From contig NSIV01000005.1 in assembly GCA_002633085.1 (NCBI GenBank), forward strand, positions 124,001-188,000: 64,000 nt of DNA. Reading direction: 5' to 3'. Each line of letters begins with the position of its first letter. Position 1 is the stretch's first letter. Position numbers and translations under genes: made by a program. The notes below the pieces were generated by a model. The model searched no databases. It worked only from the letters and a program-made list of their open reading frames with translations, and was not told the DNA's origin. Shown here piece after piece: positions 54,404 to 60,922 of this stretch. Source of the stretch: Curvibacter sp. PD_MW3 (GTDB lineage Bacteria; Pseudomonadota; Gammaproteobacteria; Burkholderiales; Burkholderiaceae_C).

Positions 54404-54882
54404 CCACATCATCCACAGAAACCGAGGCGGCGCAAGCCGCGCGCGAGATTGTCAGTACCCGCCATTTCGCGCAGCCGCGCGAGCAGCTCTGGGCCGCCTT
54501 TGCCGATGCGCAGCGCCTGGCGCGCTGGTGGGGACCGGCGGGGTTTCGCAACACCTTCGAGCTGTGCGAGTTCCGCCCCGGTGGCCACTGGCGCTTCACC
54601 ATGCATGGCCCCGACGGCCAGGACTATCCCAACCGCAGCGTGTTCCACACCGTCGAGGCGCCCGCGCGCATCGTGCTGGAGCATGAGAACGCCCCGCACT
54701 TCCACCTGCACATCACGCTGATCGACGAGGCCGGCGGCACCCGGCTGGGTTGGCGCATGTGTTTCGACGACGCCGCCACACGCGAGGCGGTAGCCCGCTA
54801 CGCCGTGCCCGCCAATGAGCAGGTCTTTGACCGTCTGCAGGCGGAACTCACTCGCAACACCCTCCAGGGAGAACCCACATGA
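54400..54882 (+). CDS. SRPBCC/AHSA1 family protein
   Basis: The 160-residue protein contains VSTRHFAQPREQLWAAFADAQRLARWWGPAGFRNTFELCEFRPGGHWRFTMHGPDG, typical of the activator-of-Hsp90-like (AHSA1/CalC) SRPBCC group. It is cytoplasmic, with a ligand-binding or chaperone-like role not established. ATGA overlaps at both ends tie it to its neighbours. Confidence 0.9.
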   Translation: MTTSSTETEAAQAAREIVSTRHFAQPREQLWAAFADAQRLARWWGPAGFRNTFELCEFRPGGHWRFTMHGPDGQDYPNRSVFHTVEAPARIVLEHENAPHFHLHITLIDEAGGTRLGWRMCFDDAATREAVARYAVPANEQVFDRLQAELTRNTLQGEPT

Positions 54883-55298
54883 GCCAGCAAATCTACGTCA
54901 ACCTGCCCGTGCGCGACCTGGCACGCTCCAGGGCCTTCTTCGGCGCCCTGGGCTACAGCTTCAACCCGCAGTTCAGCAACGAGCAGGGCGCCTGCATGGT
55001 GATCAGCGACGACATCTACGTCATGCTGCTGACCGAACCCTTCTGCCAGACCTTCACCAGCAAGCCCCTGGCCGATGCCCGCAAGACGACCGAGGTGCTG
55101 ATCTGCCTGTCGTGTGCCAGCCGCGCCGAGGTTGACCAGCTGGTGGCCAAGGCCCGTGCGGCCGGTGGCACGGTGCCGCGTGCGTCGCAAGACCATGGTT
55201 TCATGTACCAGCACGGCTTCGAAGACCTGGACGGCCACATCTGGGAGCTGGCCTACATGGACATGGCCGCCTGTCCGGCCACACCGGCGCAAGCCTGA
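54879..55298 (+). CDS. VOC family (glyoxalase-like) protein
   Basis: The 139-residue VOC-fold protein starts QIYVNLPVRDLARSRAFFGALGYSFNPQFS and ends with QDHGFMYQHGFEDLDGHIWELAYMD, where H and E are possible metal ligands. It resembles the lactoylglutathione lyase-like group without a known substrate. It is in the same operon as the ECF42-like sigma factor. Confidence 0.88.
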   Translation: MSQQIYVNLPVRDLARSRAFFGALGYSFNPQFSNEQGACMVISDDIYVMLLTEPFCQTFTSKPLADARKTTEVLICLSCASRAEVDQLVAKARAAGGTVPRASQDHGFMYQHGFEDLDGHIWELAYMDMAACPATPAQA

Positions 55299-55313
55299 GC
55301 ACCTGGCCGCCTG

Positions 55314-56606
55314 ATGCACTCCGCCACCCACCAGGCCATTGCCGCTGTCTGGCGCATCGAGTCCGCGCGCATCGTGGCGGCCGTGGCGCGCCTGCTGCGC
55401 GACATCGGCCAGGCCGAGGAGGTGGCGCAGGACGCGCTGGTGGCGGCGCTGGAGCATTGGCCCACCAAGGGCGTGCCCGACAACCCCGGTGCCTGGCTCA
55501 TGGCCACCGCCAAGAACCGTGCGCTCGACCGCCTGCGCCGCGACAAGGTGCAGAGCAGCAAGTTCGAGCAGATTGGCCACGAGCTGGAGGCGCAGCAAGC
55601 ACTGGTGGTGCCCGACTTCGTGGACGCGCTCGACGCAGCGCGCGCCGACGAGATTGGCGACGACCTGCTGCGCCTGATCTTCACTGCCTGCCACCCGGTG
55701 CTCAGCGCCGAGATGCGCGCGGCGCTCACGCTCAAGCTGCTGGCGGGCCTGAGCACACACGAGATTGCGCGCGCCTTCCTGGTGACCGAGCCCACGCTGG
55801 CGCAGCGCATCGTGCGTGCCAAGCGCACCCTGCGCGAAGCGCGCGTGCCCTTCGAGCTGCCGCGTGGCGCCGTGCTGGGCGAGCGGCTGGCCTCGGTGCT
55901 GGAGGTGGTGTACCTGGTCTTCAACGAAGGCTACACAGCGACGGCCGGCGAGGACTGGATGCGCCCGGCCCTGGTGGACGAAGCCTTGCGCCTGGGCCGC
56001 ATGCTGGCCGAACTGGCCGCCGACGAGCCCGAAGTGCACGGCCTGCTGGCGCTGATGGAGTTGCAGGCCTCGCGCACCGCCGCCCGCACCGATGCCAGCG
56101 GCCGCCCCGTGCTGCTGCTGGCGCAGGACCGCACGCGCTGGGACCATCTGCTCATCCGCCGCGGGCTGGCGGCGCTGGCGCGGGCCGAGGCCTTGTGCGC
56201 CGCCCAGGGCCAGCCGCTCGGGGCCTATGCGCTGCAAGGCGCCATTGCCGCCTGCCATGCGCGCGCCGTTCAGGCTGCCGACACCGACTGGGTGCGCATT
56301 GCCTCGCTCTACGAGGCGCTGGCGCAGACCACGCCGTCGCCGGTGGTGGAACTCAACCGTGCCGTGGCTGTGGCCATGGCCTACGGGCCGGCCGCTGGTC
56401 TAACCCTCATCGACGCGCTGCGTGAAGACCGCGCCCTGCAAAACTACCAGTGGCTGCCCAGCGTGCGCGGCGACCTGCTGGCCAAGCTGGGCCGGCTGGC
56501 AGAAGCGCGTGCCGAGTTCGCACACGCCGCCACGCTGACGCACAACCTGCGCGAGCGCGAGCTGCTGCTGGCGCGGGCGCAGACCCTTGGTGAGACCGGG
56601 GCCTGA
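55314..56606 (+). CDS. ECF42-type RNA polymerase sigma factor with C-terminal extension
   Basis: The 430-residue protein has ECF region 2 (IAAVARLLRDIGQAEEVAQDALVAALEHWP) and region 4 (LLAGLSTHEIARAFLVTEPTLAQRIVRAKRTLREA), then a TPR-like C-terminal domain of about 250 residues (DEALRLGRMLAEL through PSPVVELNRAVAVAMAYGP). ECF42 factors carry this extension, lack an anti-sigma gene and are linked to DGPF proteins, as here. It probably autoregulates the operon. Confidence 0.9.
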   Translation: MHSATHQAIAAVWRIESARIVAAVARLLRDIGQAEEVAQDALVAALEHWPTKGVPDNPGAWLMATAKNRALDRLRRDKVQSSKFEQIGHELEAQQALVVPDFVDALDAARADEIGDDLLRLIFTACHPVLSAEMRAALTLKLLAGLSTHEIARAFLVTEPTLAQRIVRAKRTLREARVPFELPRGAVLGERLASVLEVVYLVFNEGYTATAGEDWMRPALVDEALRLGRMLAELAADEPEVHGLLALMELQASRTAARTDASGRPVLLLAQDRTRWDHLLIRRGLAALARAEALCAAQGQPLGAYALQGAIAACHARAVQAADTDWVRIASLYEALAQTTPSPVVELNRAVAVAMAYGPAAGLTLIDALREDRALQNYQWLPSVRGDLLAKLGRLAEARAEFAHAATLTHNLRERELLLARAQTLGETGA

Positions 56607-56651
56607 GCGCCTGCACCGTTTCTTGTGTCTTCCTTCTGAAGGAGGTCTCTC

Positions 56652-57146
56652 ATGCTGAACCCGCTCAAGATCACCCCCTGCCTGTGGTTCGACCACCAGG
56701 CCGAAGAAGCCGCTGCGTTCTACACGGCCATCTTCCCCAACTCGCGCATCACCGGCGTGAGCCGTTTCCCCGATGCCGGGCAAGAGATTCACGGCAAGCC
56801 GGCTGGCTCGGTGATGACGGTGAGCTTCGAACTCGACGGCCAGCCCTTTGTGGCCTTGAACGGCGGCCCGGAGTTCCACTTCAGCGAAGCAGTCTCGCTG
56901 CAAATCCATTGTGTCGATCAAGCCGATGTGGATTACTACTGGGACAAACTAGGTGTTGGCGGCGACGAGCGCGCGCAGCAGTGCGGCTGGCTGAAAGACC
57001 GCTACGGCCTGTCGTGGCAGGTGGTGCCCACGGTGTTGCTGGCGCTGATGCAGCACCCGGATCCGGCGACAACGCGTCGTGTCATGCAGGCATTGCTGCA
57101 GATGAAGAAGCTGGACATCGACGGTCTGAAGCAAGCGGCCGCGTGA
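56652..57146 (+). CDS. PhnB-like VOC family protein
   Basis: The 164-residue protein starts KITPCLWFDHQAEEAAAFYTAIFPNSRI and contains GSVMTVSFELDGQPFVALNGGPEFHFSEAVSLQIHC and CGWLKDRYGLSWQVVP, the PhnB/3-demethylubiquinone methyltransferase-like VOC group. Despite that family name it has no SAM site. It follows the sigma factor gene by 45 bases with a GAAGGAGG ribosome site, and closes the operon. Confidence 0.9.
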   Translation: MLNPLKITPCLWFDHQAEEAAAFYTAIFPNSRITGVSRFPDAGQEIHGKPAGSVMTVSFELDGQPFVALNGGPEFHFSEAVSLQIHCVDQADVDYYWDKLGVGGDERAQQCGWLKDRYGLSWQVVPTVLLALMQHPDPATTRRVMQALLQMKKLDIDGLKQAAA

Positions 57147-57253: not shown

Positions 57254-57616
57254 ATGAACCACCCGCTGTCTTACTTGTGCTCGATATTGCTCTTGGGGCT
57301 GGCCTTGCCGCTGGCGGCCGAGGCCCGCTGCGTCACCACCCGCTATGGGGAAACGCTGTGTGCGCCGGCCGAGAGCCGCTGCGTCAACGACCGTTATGGC
57401 GACCCCCATTGTTCCGGCAGCGGCGGCGATGCCGTGCTGGACCGCTACGGCGCCGCGGTCTGCGGCGTCGGGCGCTGCGTGATGGAGCGCGATGGCAATG
57501 TAATGTGCTCAACCGAGCCGCGGGGCAGCGCAGCGCTCGATCGGTATTCCCAAGCCGTCTGCACTGGGGGTTGCGAACCGGCACAGGCCAGCCGCTGCAA
57601 GCCGCTCACCAAGTAG
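57254..57616 (+). CDS. Secreted Cys-rich repeat protein
   Basis: The 120-residue protein has a signal peptide (cleavage near AAEARC, residue 24) and a mature part built of about five units of the type RCxxxRYGxxxC (RCVTTRYGETLC, RCVNDRYGDPHC, DAVLDRYGAAVC, RCVMERDGNVMC, SAALDRYSQAVC), then GGCEPAQASRCKPLTK. The paired Cys suggest disulfides and periplasmic location. I do not recognise a named family. A truncated copy of its C-terminal part lies at 60781-60879, on the other side of the sigF module. Confidence 0.78.
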   Translation: MNHPLSYLCSILLLGLALPLAAEARCVTTRYGETLCAPAESRCVNDRYGDPHCSGSGGDAVLDRYGAAVCGVGRCVMERDGNVMCSTEPRGSAALDRYSQAVCTGGCEPAQASRCKPLTK

Positions 57617-57691: not shown

Positions 57692-57943
57692 TTATTTCTT
57701 CATCGCATCCTTGCCCATGGCGTCCTTGGCCATGCTGTCCTTTTTCATGTTGTCTTTCGCCATGCTGTCCTTGGCCATGGTGTCTTTTTTCATGCTGTCC
57801 TTGCCCATCGCGTCTTTGGCCATGGTGTCTTTCGTCATGGCATCCTTGGCCATGCTGTCCTTCTTCATCGCATCTTGCGCAAAGGTACCGCTGCCGGCCA
57901 GCAGCAGGGTAACGGCCAAAAGGGTCGAGCTGATCGTTTTCAT
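57692..57943 (-). CDS. mrpX: Methionine-rich MxKDx pentapeptide repeat protein (MrpX-like)
   Basis: The 83-residue precursor has a signal peptide (MKTISSTLLAVTLLLAGSGTFAQ). The mature part is almost entirely tandem pentads of the form xKDxM, eleven in a row, giving 12 methionines with Lys and Asp between them. The DNA shows the matching 15-base periodicity. In Azospira such a Met-rich periplasmic protein next to yedY1/yedZ1/sigF/nrsF acts as a sacrificial hypochlorite scavenger that the molybdoenzyme re-reduces. The gene lies 70 bases after the YedY-like gene and is likely in the same operon. Confidence 0.88.
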   Translation of the reverse strand: MKTISSTLLAVTLLLAGSGTFAQDAMKKDSMAKDAMTKDTMAKDAMGKDSMKKDTMAKDSMAKDNMKKDSMAKDAMGKDAMKK

Positions 57944-58013
57944 AGTGAACTCCATTGAAGTGATGATGAGATGGCGTTAGTGCCGATTTTTCAGGGCGTC
58001 CGAGTTGTCACAC

Positions 58014-58799
58014 TCAGCTGCCTCCGAACCAGTTGTACCCCTGGTCTTCCCAGTAGCCTCCGGGGTAGGTATTCGTGACGAAAATCGCCTGAATGTGTTT
58101 TGGATTTTTGTAGCCCAGCTTGGTGGGCATGCGCAATTTCATGGGGAAGCCGTACTTGGGCGGCAAGGGCTGGCCGTCGTAGGTCAGCGCCAGCACGGTT
58201 TGCGGATGCAGTGCCGTGGGCATGTCGATGCTGGTGAAATAGTCGTCGGCACATTTGAAGCCCACGTACTTGGCACTGAGGTCGGCGCCCACCTGGCGCA
58301 GAAAGCTGCCGAATGACACGCCGCCCCACTTGCCAATGGCGCTCCAGCCTTCCACGCAAATGTGGCGGGTGACCTGGTCGGTCTGCGGCATGGCGCGCAG
58401 CTCGGCGAGCGTCCATTTGCGCTTGTCGGCGACCAGGCCCGTCACTTCAAGGCGGTAGCTGCTTTCCTCGACGGCCCGGACTTCGTCTTCGCCGTAATAG
58501 GCGTTGAAGGGAAACGGGCGCGTGATCATCGACTCGGGGTAGGTCGGCGCCAGCCGGTTGGGATCAAACAGCCAGCCTTGTACGTCGTCGTTCAGGCGCG
58601 AGATCCTGGTCAGTGCCGTTTCAACGCTGGTTTCATCAACCAGCGAACAACCGCTGAGCATGGCCAGGCCGCCCAGCGTGAGCGAGCGGCGCAGGAAATC
58701 GCGTCGCGCGGTCTGGCCGATGCGTTGCACGGCTTCCTTCAGAACGGCATCGCCGTCGATGCGCCAAGTGGATGTGATGGGTGTGGGTTGAGCGGTCAT
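58014..58799 (-). CDS. yedY1: YedY/MsrP-like molybdopterin oxidoreductase
   Basis: The 261-residue sulfite-oxidase-fold enzyme has a twin-Arg signal (ARRDFLRRSLTLGG, about residues 31-44) followed by LSGC at 48-51, which could be a lipobox. The catalytic domain has the Mo-ligand C148 in RHICVEGWSAIGKWGGVSF and the family stretch YGFPMKLRMPTKLGYKNPKHIQAIFV. YedY-type enzymes reduce methionine sulfoxide in periplasmic proteins. It is 12 bases after the cytochrome b gene. The likely substrate is the oxidised MxKDx protein. Confidence 0.9.
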   Translation of the reverse strand: MTAQPTPITSTWRIDGDAVLKEAVQRIGQTARRDFLRRSLTLGGLAMLSGCSLVDETSVETALTRISRLNDDVQGWLFDPNRLAPTYPESMITRPFPFNAYYGEDEVRAVEESSYRLEVTGLVADKRKWTLAELRAMPQTDQVTRHICVEGWSAIGKWGGVSFGSFLRQVGADLSAKYVGFKCADDYFTSIDMPTALHPQTVLALTYDGQPLPPKYGFPMKLRMPTKLGYKNPKHIQAIFVTNTYPGGYWEDQGYNWFGGS

Positions 58800-58811
58800 G
58801 GTGTGCTCTCC

Positions 58812-59408
58812 TTAGCGGCCGCGGATCATGTGGATCAGCGTGCGCGGCACCAGCGCCACCATCGCCAGATGAACGGCCACGAAGGCGGCAAGTGCGGCCA
58901 TGGCGAAGAAATGGACCCGACGAGCGCCTTCATAACCGGCCATCAGTTCGCGCAGCAGCGGGAACTGCACGGATTTCCAGAGCACCAGGCCGGACAGCAC
59001 CAGCAGGACGCTGTCAAACATCACGAACAGATACGCCAGCCGCTGCACCGCGTTGTAATGCTGCGGGTCGGCATGGGCCAGCCGGCCTTGGAGGGCCGCC
59101 AGCAGATCGGCCAGCAAGGCGCGTGGGGACAGGGGAAAGAACCGGTGCCACAGGCGCCCGGTGGCCAGATTGAAGCCCAGGTACAACAGCCCATTGCCCG
59201 CCAGCAGCCACATGGCGGCAAAGTGCCACTGAAGTGCCCCGCCCAGCCAGCCGCCCAAGGTGATGTCCTTGGGAAACGCAAAGCCGAGGAAGGCCGTGGC
59301 GTTGTAGATTCGCCAGCCGCTCATCATGAGAACCACCACCGCCAGGGCATTGAGCCAGTGCGCGGTGCGCAACCAGGCGGGGTGAACGACCTCTGTTTGT
59401 GAACGCAT
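58812..59408 (-). CDS. yedZ1: Cytochrome b561-type membrane electron donor (YedZ1-like)
   Basis: The 198-residue protein has four membrane helices with His residues for b hemes (LRTAHWLNALA near residue 12, LQWHFAAMWLLAG, RRVHFFAMAALAAFVAVHLAM). It passes electrons from quinol to the adjacent YedY-like enzyme. The start at 59408 follows GGAG with an 8-base spacer; an upstream in-frame ATG at 59423 has no such site. A SigF-type promoter lies about 55 bases upstream. Confidence 0.88.
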   Translation of the reverse strand: MRSQTEVVHPAWLRTAHWLNALAVVVLMMSGWRIYNATAFLGFAFPKDITLGGWLGGALQWHFAAMWLLAGNGLLYLGFNLATGRLWHRFFPLSPRALLADLLAALQGRLAHADPQHYNAVQRLAYLFVMFDSVLLVLSGLVLWKSVQFPLLRELMAGYEGARRVHFFAMAALAAFVAVHLAMVALVPRTLIHMIRGR

Positions 59409-59463
59409 CAAGAGAGACTCCATTGATTGCCAGGCGGACGGAACGCCGCTGCTTGAGGGGTAG

Positions 59464-59489
59464 TTCGTCGGAACTTGGCCGCGGGTTAC
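59464..59489 (-). promoter_or_regulatory. SigF-type ECF promoter for the yedZ1-yedY1-mrpX unit
   Basis: On the minus strand GTAACC (59489-59484), exactly 16 bases, then CGAA (59467-59464). This is the form GTAACC-N16-CGAA known for Caulobacter-type SigF. It lies 55 bases upstream of the yedZ1 start codon. Confidence 0.8.
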
Positions 59490-59531
59490 AGTTCTCGGCA
59501 AAATCCGGCGAAATATTTTTTTCGGCACGCT

Positions 59532-59557
59532 GTAACCTGAAGCCGCCATGGAACGAA
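59532..59557 (+). promoter_or_regulatory. SigF-type ECF promoter for sigF-nrsF
   Basis: GTAACC (59532-59537), exactly 16 bases, then CGAA (59554-59557), the same form and spacing as the divergent minus-strand promoter. Its -10 lies downstream of the first ATG of the sigF reading frame (59548), which implies that translation begins further in. Confidence 0.72.
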
Positions 59558-60123
59558 TAGAAGAAAGAGATGTTCGGTTCGCGACCAGCGAAAACCAGTT
59601 GCGCGAGTTGCTGGTGCAGGGGCTGGACGGCGATGCCGCCGCCTACCACCGCTTCCTGAAAGCGCTGAGCGCGCATTTGCGGGCGTATTTCAGAAAGCGG
59701 CTTTTTCAGCGACCCGACGAAGTGGAGGACCTCGTGCAGGAAACATTGCTTGCCGTGCACAACCAGCGACACACCTACCGCCTCGACCTGCCCCTGACCG
59801 CCTGGGTGCATGCGATCGCGCGCTACAAGCTGGTCGATCTGTTGCGGGCCCACACGTCGCGCGAGGCCCTGACCGACCCGCTGGACGACGAGCTCGAACT
59901 CTTTGCCGCGTCCGACACCGAGGCAGACGAGGCCCGGAAAGACCTGAACAAGCTGCTGGCCGGCTTGCCCGAGCGGCAACGCCTGCCCATCGTGCACGTC
60001 AAGCTGGAGGGCCTGTCGGTGGTGGAGGCGGCGCAGCTCACCGGCATGTCGGAGTCGGCCATCAAGATCGGCGTGCACCGGGGCCTGAAGGCGCTGGCGG
60101 CCAAAATCAGGGGAATTGCATGA
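59548..60123 (+). CDS. sigF: ECF sigma factor SigF
   Basis: The longest frame encodes 191 residues, with ECF region 2 ([52 protein letters not shown]) and region 4 ([44 protein letters not shown]). It is coupled to the NrsF-type anti-sigma gene by ATGA. The start is doubtful: the SigF-like promoter overlaps the ATG at 59548, so TTG at 59599 or GTG at 59614 may be the true start, still leaving the full sigma-2 domain from about [14 protein letters not shown]. Confidence 0.9.
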
Positions 60124-60761
60124 AGACCGATGAACTTGTTTCGCTGCTGGCGGCCGGTGCCGAGCCGGTGCCTGTGAATGCGGTGGGCCGGCGCTTTGCC
60201 GTGGCCCTGGGCTGGAGTGTGCCGGCCGCCGCCTTGGTGATGGCCGTCATGTTTGGCATTCGCCATGACTTGGCGCAGGCCATGACGGGATGGCTGTTCT
60301 GGACGAAGCTGCTCTTTGCGGGCAGCCTCGCGCTGGCCGGTGTCGTCGCAACCGAACGGCTGGGCCGGCCTGGCATGCGGCTGACCGGCATCTGGATGGC
60401 ATTGGCCGCGCCCGTGCTGCTGTTGTGGCTGGCCGCAGCCGCGGCGTTGCTTGAAGCGGAACCGGCGCAACGCGCTGACCTCATTCTCGGGACGACCTGG
60501 AAGACCTGTCCTTTCAACATCGCGCTGATCTCGCTGCCGCTGTTGGCGGCGACGCTCTGGACCATGAAGGGGCTGGCCCCGACCCGTCTGACGCTGGCCG
60601 GCGCCGGCGCCGGTCTGTTGGCCGGGGCGCTGAGTGCGCTGGTCTATGCGCTGCACTGCCCGGAGTCGGCCGTGCCCTTCATCGGTATCTGGTACGTGCT
60701 GGGCATCGCCATGCCGACGCTGGCCGGCGCGCTGCTGGGGCCGCGGGTGTTGCGCTGGTAG
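60120..60761 (+). CDS. nrsF: NrsF family (DUF1109) anti-sigma factor
   Basis: The 213-residue protein has six predicted helices and the DUF1109 layout: a short cytoplasmic N-terminus ([17 protein letters not shown]) followed by membrane spans, ending [35 protein letters not shown]. NrsF proteins hold SigF at the membrane and release it on oxidative, heavy-metal or chlorine stress. A Cys at WKTCPFN and one in HCPES are the conserved pair thought to sense stress. It is translationally coupled to sigF. Confidence 0.9.
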
Positions 60762-60780
60762 TACGCAAGCAACGGCAAGG

Positions 60781-60879
60781 GTTGACGGCGATGCCGTGCT
60801 GGACTGTTATGCCAAAGCGGTTTGCACCGGAGAGTGTGAACCTGCGCAGGCCAGTCGTTGCAAGCCGCTGACGAAGTGA
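60781..60879 (+). pseudogene. Truncated 3' copy of the Cys-rich secreted protein gene
   Basis: This fragment encodes VDGDAVLDCYAKAVCTGECEPAQASRCKPLTK then stop. Its last 23 residues match 20 of 23 residues of the C-terminus of the Cys-rich protein at 57254-57616. There is no signal peptide and no credible start, so it is a remnant. It lies 19 bases after nrsF, in the same orientation as the full gene on the other side of the sigF module. Confidence 0.72.
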
Positions 60880-60922
60880 GGGGCTGCAAGCGACCCATTG
60901 TTGCTTCACTGGGGGCGCCAAT

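Follow-up and report, generated by a model that had tools for sequence, protein, structure and literature searches.

A putative SigF/NrsF-controlled methionine-cycling module in Curvibacter sp. PD_MW3 with a promoter motif overlapping the sigF start codon

Within a 64,000-nucleotide stretch of the Curvibacter sp. PD_MW3 genome (contig NSIV01000005.1, positions 124,001 to 188,000; the whole stretch is referred to as the window), five genes between 57692 and 60761 encode a sigma factor with its anti-sigma factor and, divergently, proteins of the YedYZ-MrpX kind. The source genome comprises 3.37 Mb and is 94.8% complete. A first-pass annotation had described the genes as a hypochlorite-scavenging module; all five were confirmed in position and were assigned to families by profile searches. 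The locus is a further example of the already known SigF/NrsF - YedYZ - MrpX type, with a function predicted from sequence. One odd trait of the module is that the promoter of the regulator lies on its own start codon, and the regulator may not act as a simple self-amplifier.

Genes of the locus and their relatives

The regulatory genes lie on the plus strand. Gene sigF (59548..60123) encodes an extracytoplasmic function (ECF) sigma factor of 191 amino acids, counted from ATG 59548, with matches to NF009188 (306.2 bits, cut-off 250), PF04542 and PF08281. Gene nrsF (60120..60761) encodes an anti-sigma factor matching PF06532 NrsF with 241 bits, the score with the NrsF equivalog model NF042994 being 157.7 bits, below the cut-off of 300. 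Based on these sigma2 and sigma4 domains beside an NrsF/DUF1109 protein, the two were classed as an ECF16 SigF-NrsF pair. The ATG of nrsF overlaps the sigF stop codon (ATGA) and has its own ribosome site, AGGGGA, with a Shine-Dalgarno energy of -6.5 kcal/mol. NrsF contains only two cysteines, Cys130 and Cys180, which by spacing, not alignment, are 50 residues apart as are C131/C181 in Caulobacter and C129/C179 in Brucella.

The remaining genes lie on the minus strand. The product of mrpX (57692..57955) is a methionine-rich protein of 87 amino acids with 14 Met and 11 M-x-K-D-x units, identified by TIGR02953 penta_MxKDx (98.9 bits, cut-off 41) as the sole match of this type in the genome. A signal peptide, recognised by eye, makes it an apparently exported MxKDx protein, as in the MrpX-YedYZ module. 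Gene yedY1 (58014..58799) encodes a molybdoenzyme of the YedY/sulfite-oxidase type (PF00174, 107.9 bits). Its presumed molybdenum ligand Cys148 (HICVEGWS) corresponds to the cysteine of the 1xdq segment RMRCVEAWS in a low-scoring alignment (15.8 bits). Inspection of the N-terminus by eye revealed a twin-arginine signal (ARRDFLRR) followed by a lipobox-like LSGC; therefore the enzyme may be membrane-anchored. The product of yedZ1 (58812..59408) is a cytochrome b561-type membrane protein (PF01292, 83.1 bits over residues 8-197) and, judging by gene order, the likely electron donor to YedY1. The more likely yedZ1 start is ATG 59408, preceded by GGAG. A longer open reading frame of 245 amino acids starts upstream of the promoter of yedZ1, and its start is not the likely one of the gene.

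The same five genes, together with the same genes beyond mrpX, were found in a Hylemonella metagenome-assembled genome (L005) and in Curvibacter delicatus (L007), with identities of 94.8-98.4% for YedY1, SigF and NrsF. Homology on the nrsF side stops at or before 60898 (at 60898 in the Hylemonella genome, at 60812 in C. delicatus). NrsF matches were present in 4 of 6 sampled genomes of the window's genus and in 82 of 399 in its family. Two NrsF-type matches occur close together in G515 (C23:19611-20966) and in G572 (C1:3702773-3704640), and in G003 (C1:3808595-3809204) the match falls into three overlapping pieces resembling a frame shift.

Divergent sigma-F promoter motifs

Two exact copies of GTAACC-N16-CGAA face outward at the boundary of the two units. 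This is the published sigma-F motif of Caulobacter, where transcript starts have been mapped and the activity of lacZ fusions required the motif (PMC3511200). Close variants are described for Bradyrhizobium EcfF (PMC3420878), Sinorhizobium RpoE7 (PMC6180224) and Brucella BcrS (PMC8315932). The minus-strand copy (59464..59489) is the putative promoter of the yedZ1-yedY1-mrpX unit and the plus-strand copy (59532..59557) that of the sigF side. The first-pass annotation had placed both between the units; the two exact divergent sites stand, while the plus-strand one runs into the sigF reading frame. Allowing spacers of 14-18 nt, the window contains 2 matches where 0.22 would be expected; a count of 2 was reached by 2 of 100 shuffles. 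Chance becomes much less likely because the two sites form one outward-facing pair at a gene boundary.

Related loci were compared by successive filtering. Among 157 loci, 150 had a sigF match and 135 were distinct; the sigF-side motif was present in 99 of these when up to one mismatch was allowed, in 80 as an exact match with N16 and in 79 also at the corresponding distance from sigF, the exact-motif filter being one that selects intact promoters. An exact divergent partner was present at 56 of the 79. Such conservation makes it very improbable that the plus-strand copy is a chance or inactive site, as could be argued from its position within coding sequence and from 2 other exact matches in the genome which are also inside genes. 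Based on the paired promoters, both units are plausibly under SigF control, in keeping with the earlier proposal of one regulator for all five genes. Simple positive autoregulation cannot be assumed, because the promoter on the sigF side extends over the start codon of that gene.

A regulon search with the exact motif had been suggested, and in the source genome it recovered the module pair and no clear additional member among exact matches, the only kind covered by the genome-wide scan. Four matches were obtained, the same number as with the backward control pattern. Besides the pair they comprise one in a 231-amino-acid reading frame (same strand, near the 3' end) and one in a 767-amino-acid reading frame (opposite strand). 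Location inside a reading frame is no proof against a site, because the sigF-side site itself has such a location. The exact motif was absent from the stretch examined around the msrP gene (C5:958737-959693); a single-mismatch site with an N17 spacer lies 1.4 kb upstream.

The sigF start codon and self-regulation

The in-frame ATG at 59548..59550 (plus strand), presumed to be the start of full-length SigF, lies inside the promoter spacer, 16 nt into the motif, and CGAA (59554-59557) occupies codons 3-4 of sigF. In Bradyrhizobium the ecfF transcript starts 6 bp past the -10 box (PMC3420878), from which we infer that SigF-dependent RNA would begin after ATG 59548. The closest in-frame start codons downstream are TTG 59599, about 35 nt past the expected 5' end, TTG 59608 and GTG 59614.

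An ATG at exactly this position of the spacer was found at 34 of the 79 loci and was in frame at 33 of them, compared with the same frame in 17 of the 45 loci lacking it (Fisher p 1.4e-8, uncorrected for kinship). None of the 56 partner promoters had it, and 4 had an ATG elsewhere in the spacer. With sequences clustered at 80% identity, the spacer ATG occurred in 14 of 36 clusters (in frame in 13), and at 70% in 3 of 12 (in frame in 2). No ATG, GTG or TTG was present from +4 to about residue 15 at 27 of the 79 loci, among them 15 of the 33 with an in-frame spacer ATG; from +4 to +60 the numbers were 10 and 3, respectively. All 11 members of the window's clade (SH-aLRT, the Shimodaira-Hasegawa-like likelihood ratio test, 95 on a quick tree) show the spacer ATG, followed by no other start up to about residue 15, while the 11 members of the sister clade lack the spacer ATG and have instead an ATG at +16 to +20. 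A wider sample, of up to 30 loci in each of two sets, gave 36 further sigF-matching loci; the motif was present in 28 of them when one mismatch was allowed, and a single locus had an in-frame spacer ATG. The trait therefore appears to belong mainly to the window's order. In a more distant SigF group (L114, L106, L115, L092, L087, L117 and L122) an ATG directly follows CGAA, which again places it no later than the predicted 5' end of the transcript; no other start precedes about residue 15.

The recurrence of the spacer ATG in frame suggests that translation of full-length SigF uses a transcript with a more upstream 5' end. In that case SigF-dependent RNA would include nrsF and lack the usual start codon of sigF. 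The feedback may then be a brake only, or yield a short isoform: active SigF would boost NrsF without SigF or with a shortened SigF, and the full-length protein would come from the basal transcript alone. We hold this account only tentatively and consider it rather unlikely, as several observations weigh against it. No ribosome site precedes the spacer ATG; its median Shine-Dalgarno energy was -0.2 kcal/mol (n=33), which falls below the coding background (-2.1 kcal/mol, n=790), compared with -5.2 kcal/mol for starts at +14 to +23 (n=29). The ribosome site of nrsF, on the other hand, is good, as the account would require: its median energy was -6.5 kcal/mol in the 26 loci lacking a downstream sigF start and -5.9 kcal/mol in 51 further loci. 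The coding signal of the sigF N-terminus is weak. The ratio of non-synonymous to synonymous differences (pN/pS) over codons 5-16 of eight sequences was 0.61 in frame, compared with 1.03 and 1.30 for the two alternative frames; the corresponding values for three close sequences were 0.61, 0.63 and 1.04, and a Polaromonas trio had zero synonymous differences. Column shuffles were equally low in 33 of 500 cases for codons 5-17 and in 24 of 500 for codons 5-20, and were likewise free of in-frame stops in 100 and 84 of 500, respectively. On the quick tree the trait must have changed 9 times, including no fewer than 3 changes on supported branches, and an independent-pairs test was not significant (4 pairs when restricted to supported branches, 10 when all branches were used). 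The basal promoter also went unrecognised, a consensus scan of 59300-60850 giving no sigma-70 -35/-10 pair. Between the two -35 boxes, TATTTT (59514..59519, plus strand) lies in a T-rich tract and could be an UP element or the -10 element of an upstream promoter. It was found 17-19 nt before GTAACC at 9 of 11 loci of the window's clade and at 3 of 11 of the sister clade, and is ambiguous because the sister clade also has T-rich tracts.

Ordinary positive autoregulation has a substantial chance of being correct, although we would not give it even odds. The induced RNA would then use the internal start TTG 59599, with ATG 59548 a relic or an annotation trap, and the methionine-cycling function would be unaffected. 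A precedent is Bradyrhizobium ecfF, where the transcript start was mapped onto the annotated ATG, which was judged mis-annotated, and a distal start codon was put forward instead (PMC3420878). A protein begun at residue 18 would retain the conserved LL.QG..GDA.AY part of SigF. The weak constraint on the N-terminal segment and the missing Shine-Dalgarno sequence point the same way, as does the presence of some ATG, GTG or TTG between +4 and +60 at 30 of the 33 loci with an in-frame spacer ATG. Against it stand the frame bias described above, the variation at codon 18 (TTG in part of the clade, CTG or TTA in the rest) and the 10 of 79 loci, including 3 with the spacer ATG, that are devoid of any start from +4 to +60. 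For isoforms from separate basal and self-dependent promoters there is a precedent in the ECF sigma factor SigR/SigR' of Streptomyces, where the self-dependent promoter is the upstream one and gives a longer, unstable form (PMC4921905); here a shorter form or none would result. If the promoter overlap has been read correctly, self-regulation of ECF16 factors in these lineages may brake rather than amplify, and ECF16 start-codon annotations would need review.

Proposed function, signal and surroundings

In the kinds of genes present, the locus corresponds to the reactive-chlorine module of Azospira suillum, as the first-pass annotation had recognised: both comprise sigF, nrsF, yedYZ and mrpX (PMC4623255, PMC5748585). 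It also resembles the BcrS/AbcS - BcrXQP system of Brucella melitensis, an ECF16 pair with two conserved cysteines accompanied by a methionine-rich MXKDX protein and an Msr-like pair (PMC8315932). There, the sigma/anti-sigma operon and the methionine-rich/Msr-like operon are induced by hypochlorite, transcription starts were mapped, and the self and target promoters carry TGTAAC and CGAA, the promoter type found here (PMC8315932). The two differ in that the gene adjoining the sigma gene is the methionine-rich gene in Brucella and yedZ1 here. The Caulobacter SigF-NrsF pair with CC3254-CC3257 shares with the locus the regulator pair, GTAACC-N16-CGAA, an adjacent target operon and the NrsF Cys pair, but its target operon is DUF2282-DUF692-DUF2063-DoxX and its signal Cr/Cd (PMC3511200).

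Based on these comparisons, we put at roughly 0.8 the probability that the locus is a SigF/NrsF-controlled periplasmic methionine-cycling module, an estimate that concerns the module and its regulator, not the feedback logic. In unstressed cells membrane-bound NrsF would retain SigF, which by analogy would be freed by oxidation around Cys130/Cys180 and would fire the two outward promoters. One of these would yield YedZ1, YedY1 and MrpX. Hypochlorite would oxidise the methionines of MrpX instead of vital proteins, and YedY1, supplied with electrons by YedZ1, would reduce the resulting methionine sulfoxide. RNA from the other promoter, on the sigF start, should carry intact nrsF and may also yield SigF. 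Both the signal and the enzyme activities are what we infer from the analogous systems, hypochlorite being the best-supported signal.

Several points count against this function. YedY1 scored 76.4 bits with the MsrP equivalog model, far below the cut-off of 207 for the E. coli MsrPQ type, and YedZ1 belongs to PF01292, whereas the Brucella BcrQP proteins are described as MsrQP homologues (PMC8315932); a separate true MsrP (480.5 bits) is encoded at the C5 position given above. A yedZ1-like gene was seen at only 11 of the 79 exact-motif loci, a lower bound since some stretches were short, and the regulator is thus not specific to this module. Azospira respires perchlorate, while the 94.8% complete genome of the window gave no match to the chlorite dismutase family, and so no internal source of hypochlorite is evident. 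The stimulus also varies among SigF/NrsF systems. The pair might respond mainly to another stress such as metal or peroxide, the operon repairing methionine generally and not scavenging hypochlorite. Related pairs respond to Cr/Cd (Caulobacter SigF, PMC3511200) or to H2O2 (Bradyrhizobium EcfF, PMC3420878), so that the signal is unreadable from the pair alone, and two near SigF relatives (L012 and L143, 83% and 85% identity) adjoin DUF2282 and MbnB-like genes instead. Operons of the yedYZ/mrpX type have nevertheless been tied to hypochlorite in both Azospira and Brucella, and we regard this alternative as unlikely. The locus extends a known type of chlorine defence to a genome of the Curvibacter/Hylemonella type in which the single marker tested gives no hint of perchlorate respiration, and closely related SigF/NrsF pairs are seen to adjoin different operons, for methionine cycling or of the DUF2282/MbnB-like kind.

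In L012 and L143, DUF2282 and MbnB/TglH/ChrH-like genes occupy the divergent place, preceded by a divergent pair of promoters like the one described here, and L012 additionally has a DUF2063 gene, as in the Caulobacter type of operon. Beyond mrpX in the window lies a small, apparently secreted reading frame with Cys-rich repeats (57254-57616, plus strand). Its C-terminal end recurs just after nrsF (60783-60879, plus strand; 85 nt, 75%), so that the module sits between two copies. A second sigma gene of 430 amino acids, with sigma regions and DUF6596, is located between glyoxalase-like and 3-demethylubiquinone-methyltransferase-like genes (54879-57146, plus strand). Its group is presumably ECF42, and this region is kept beside the module in L005 and in L007/L140.

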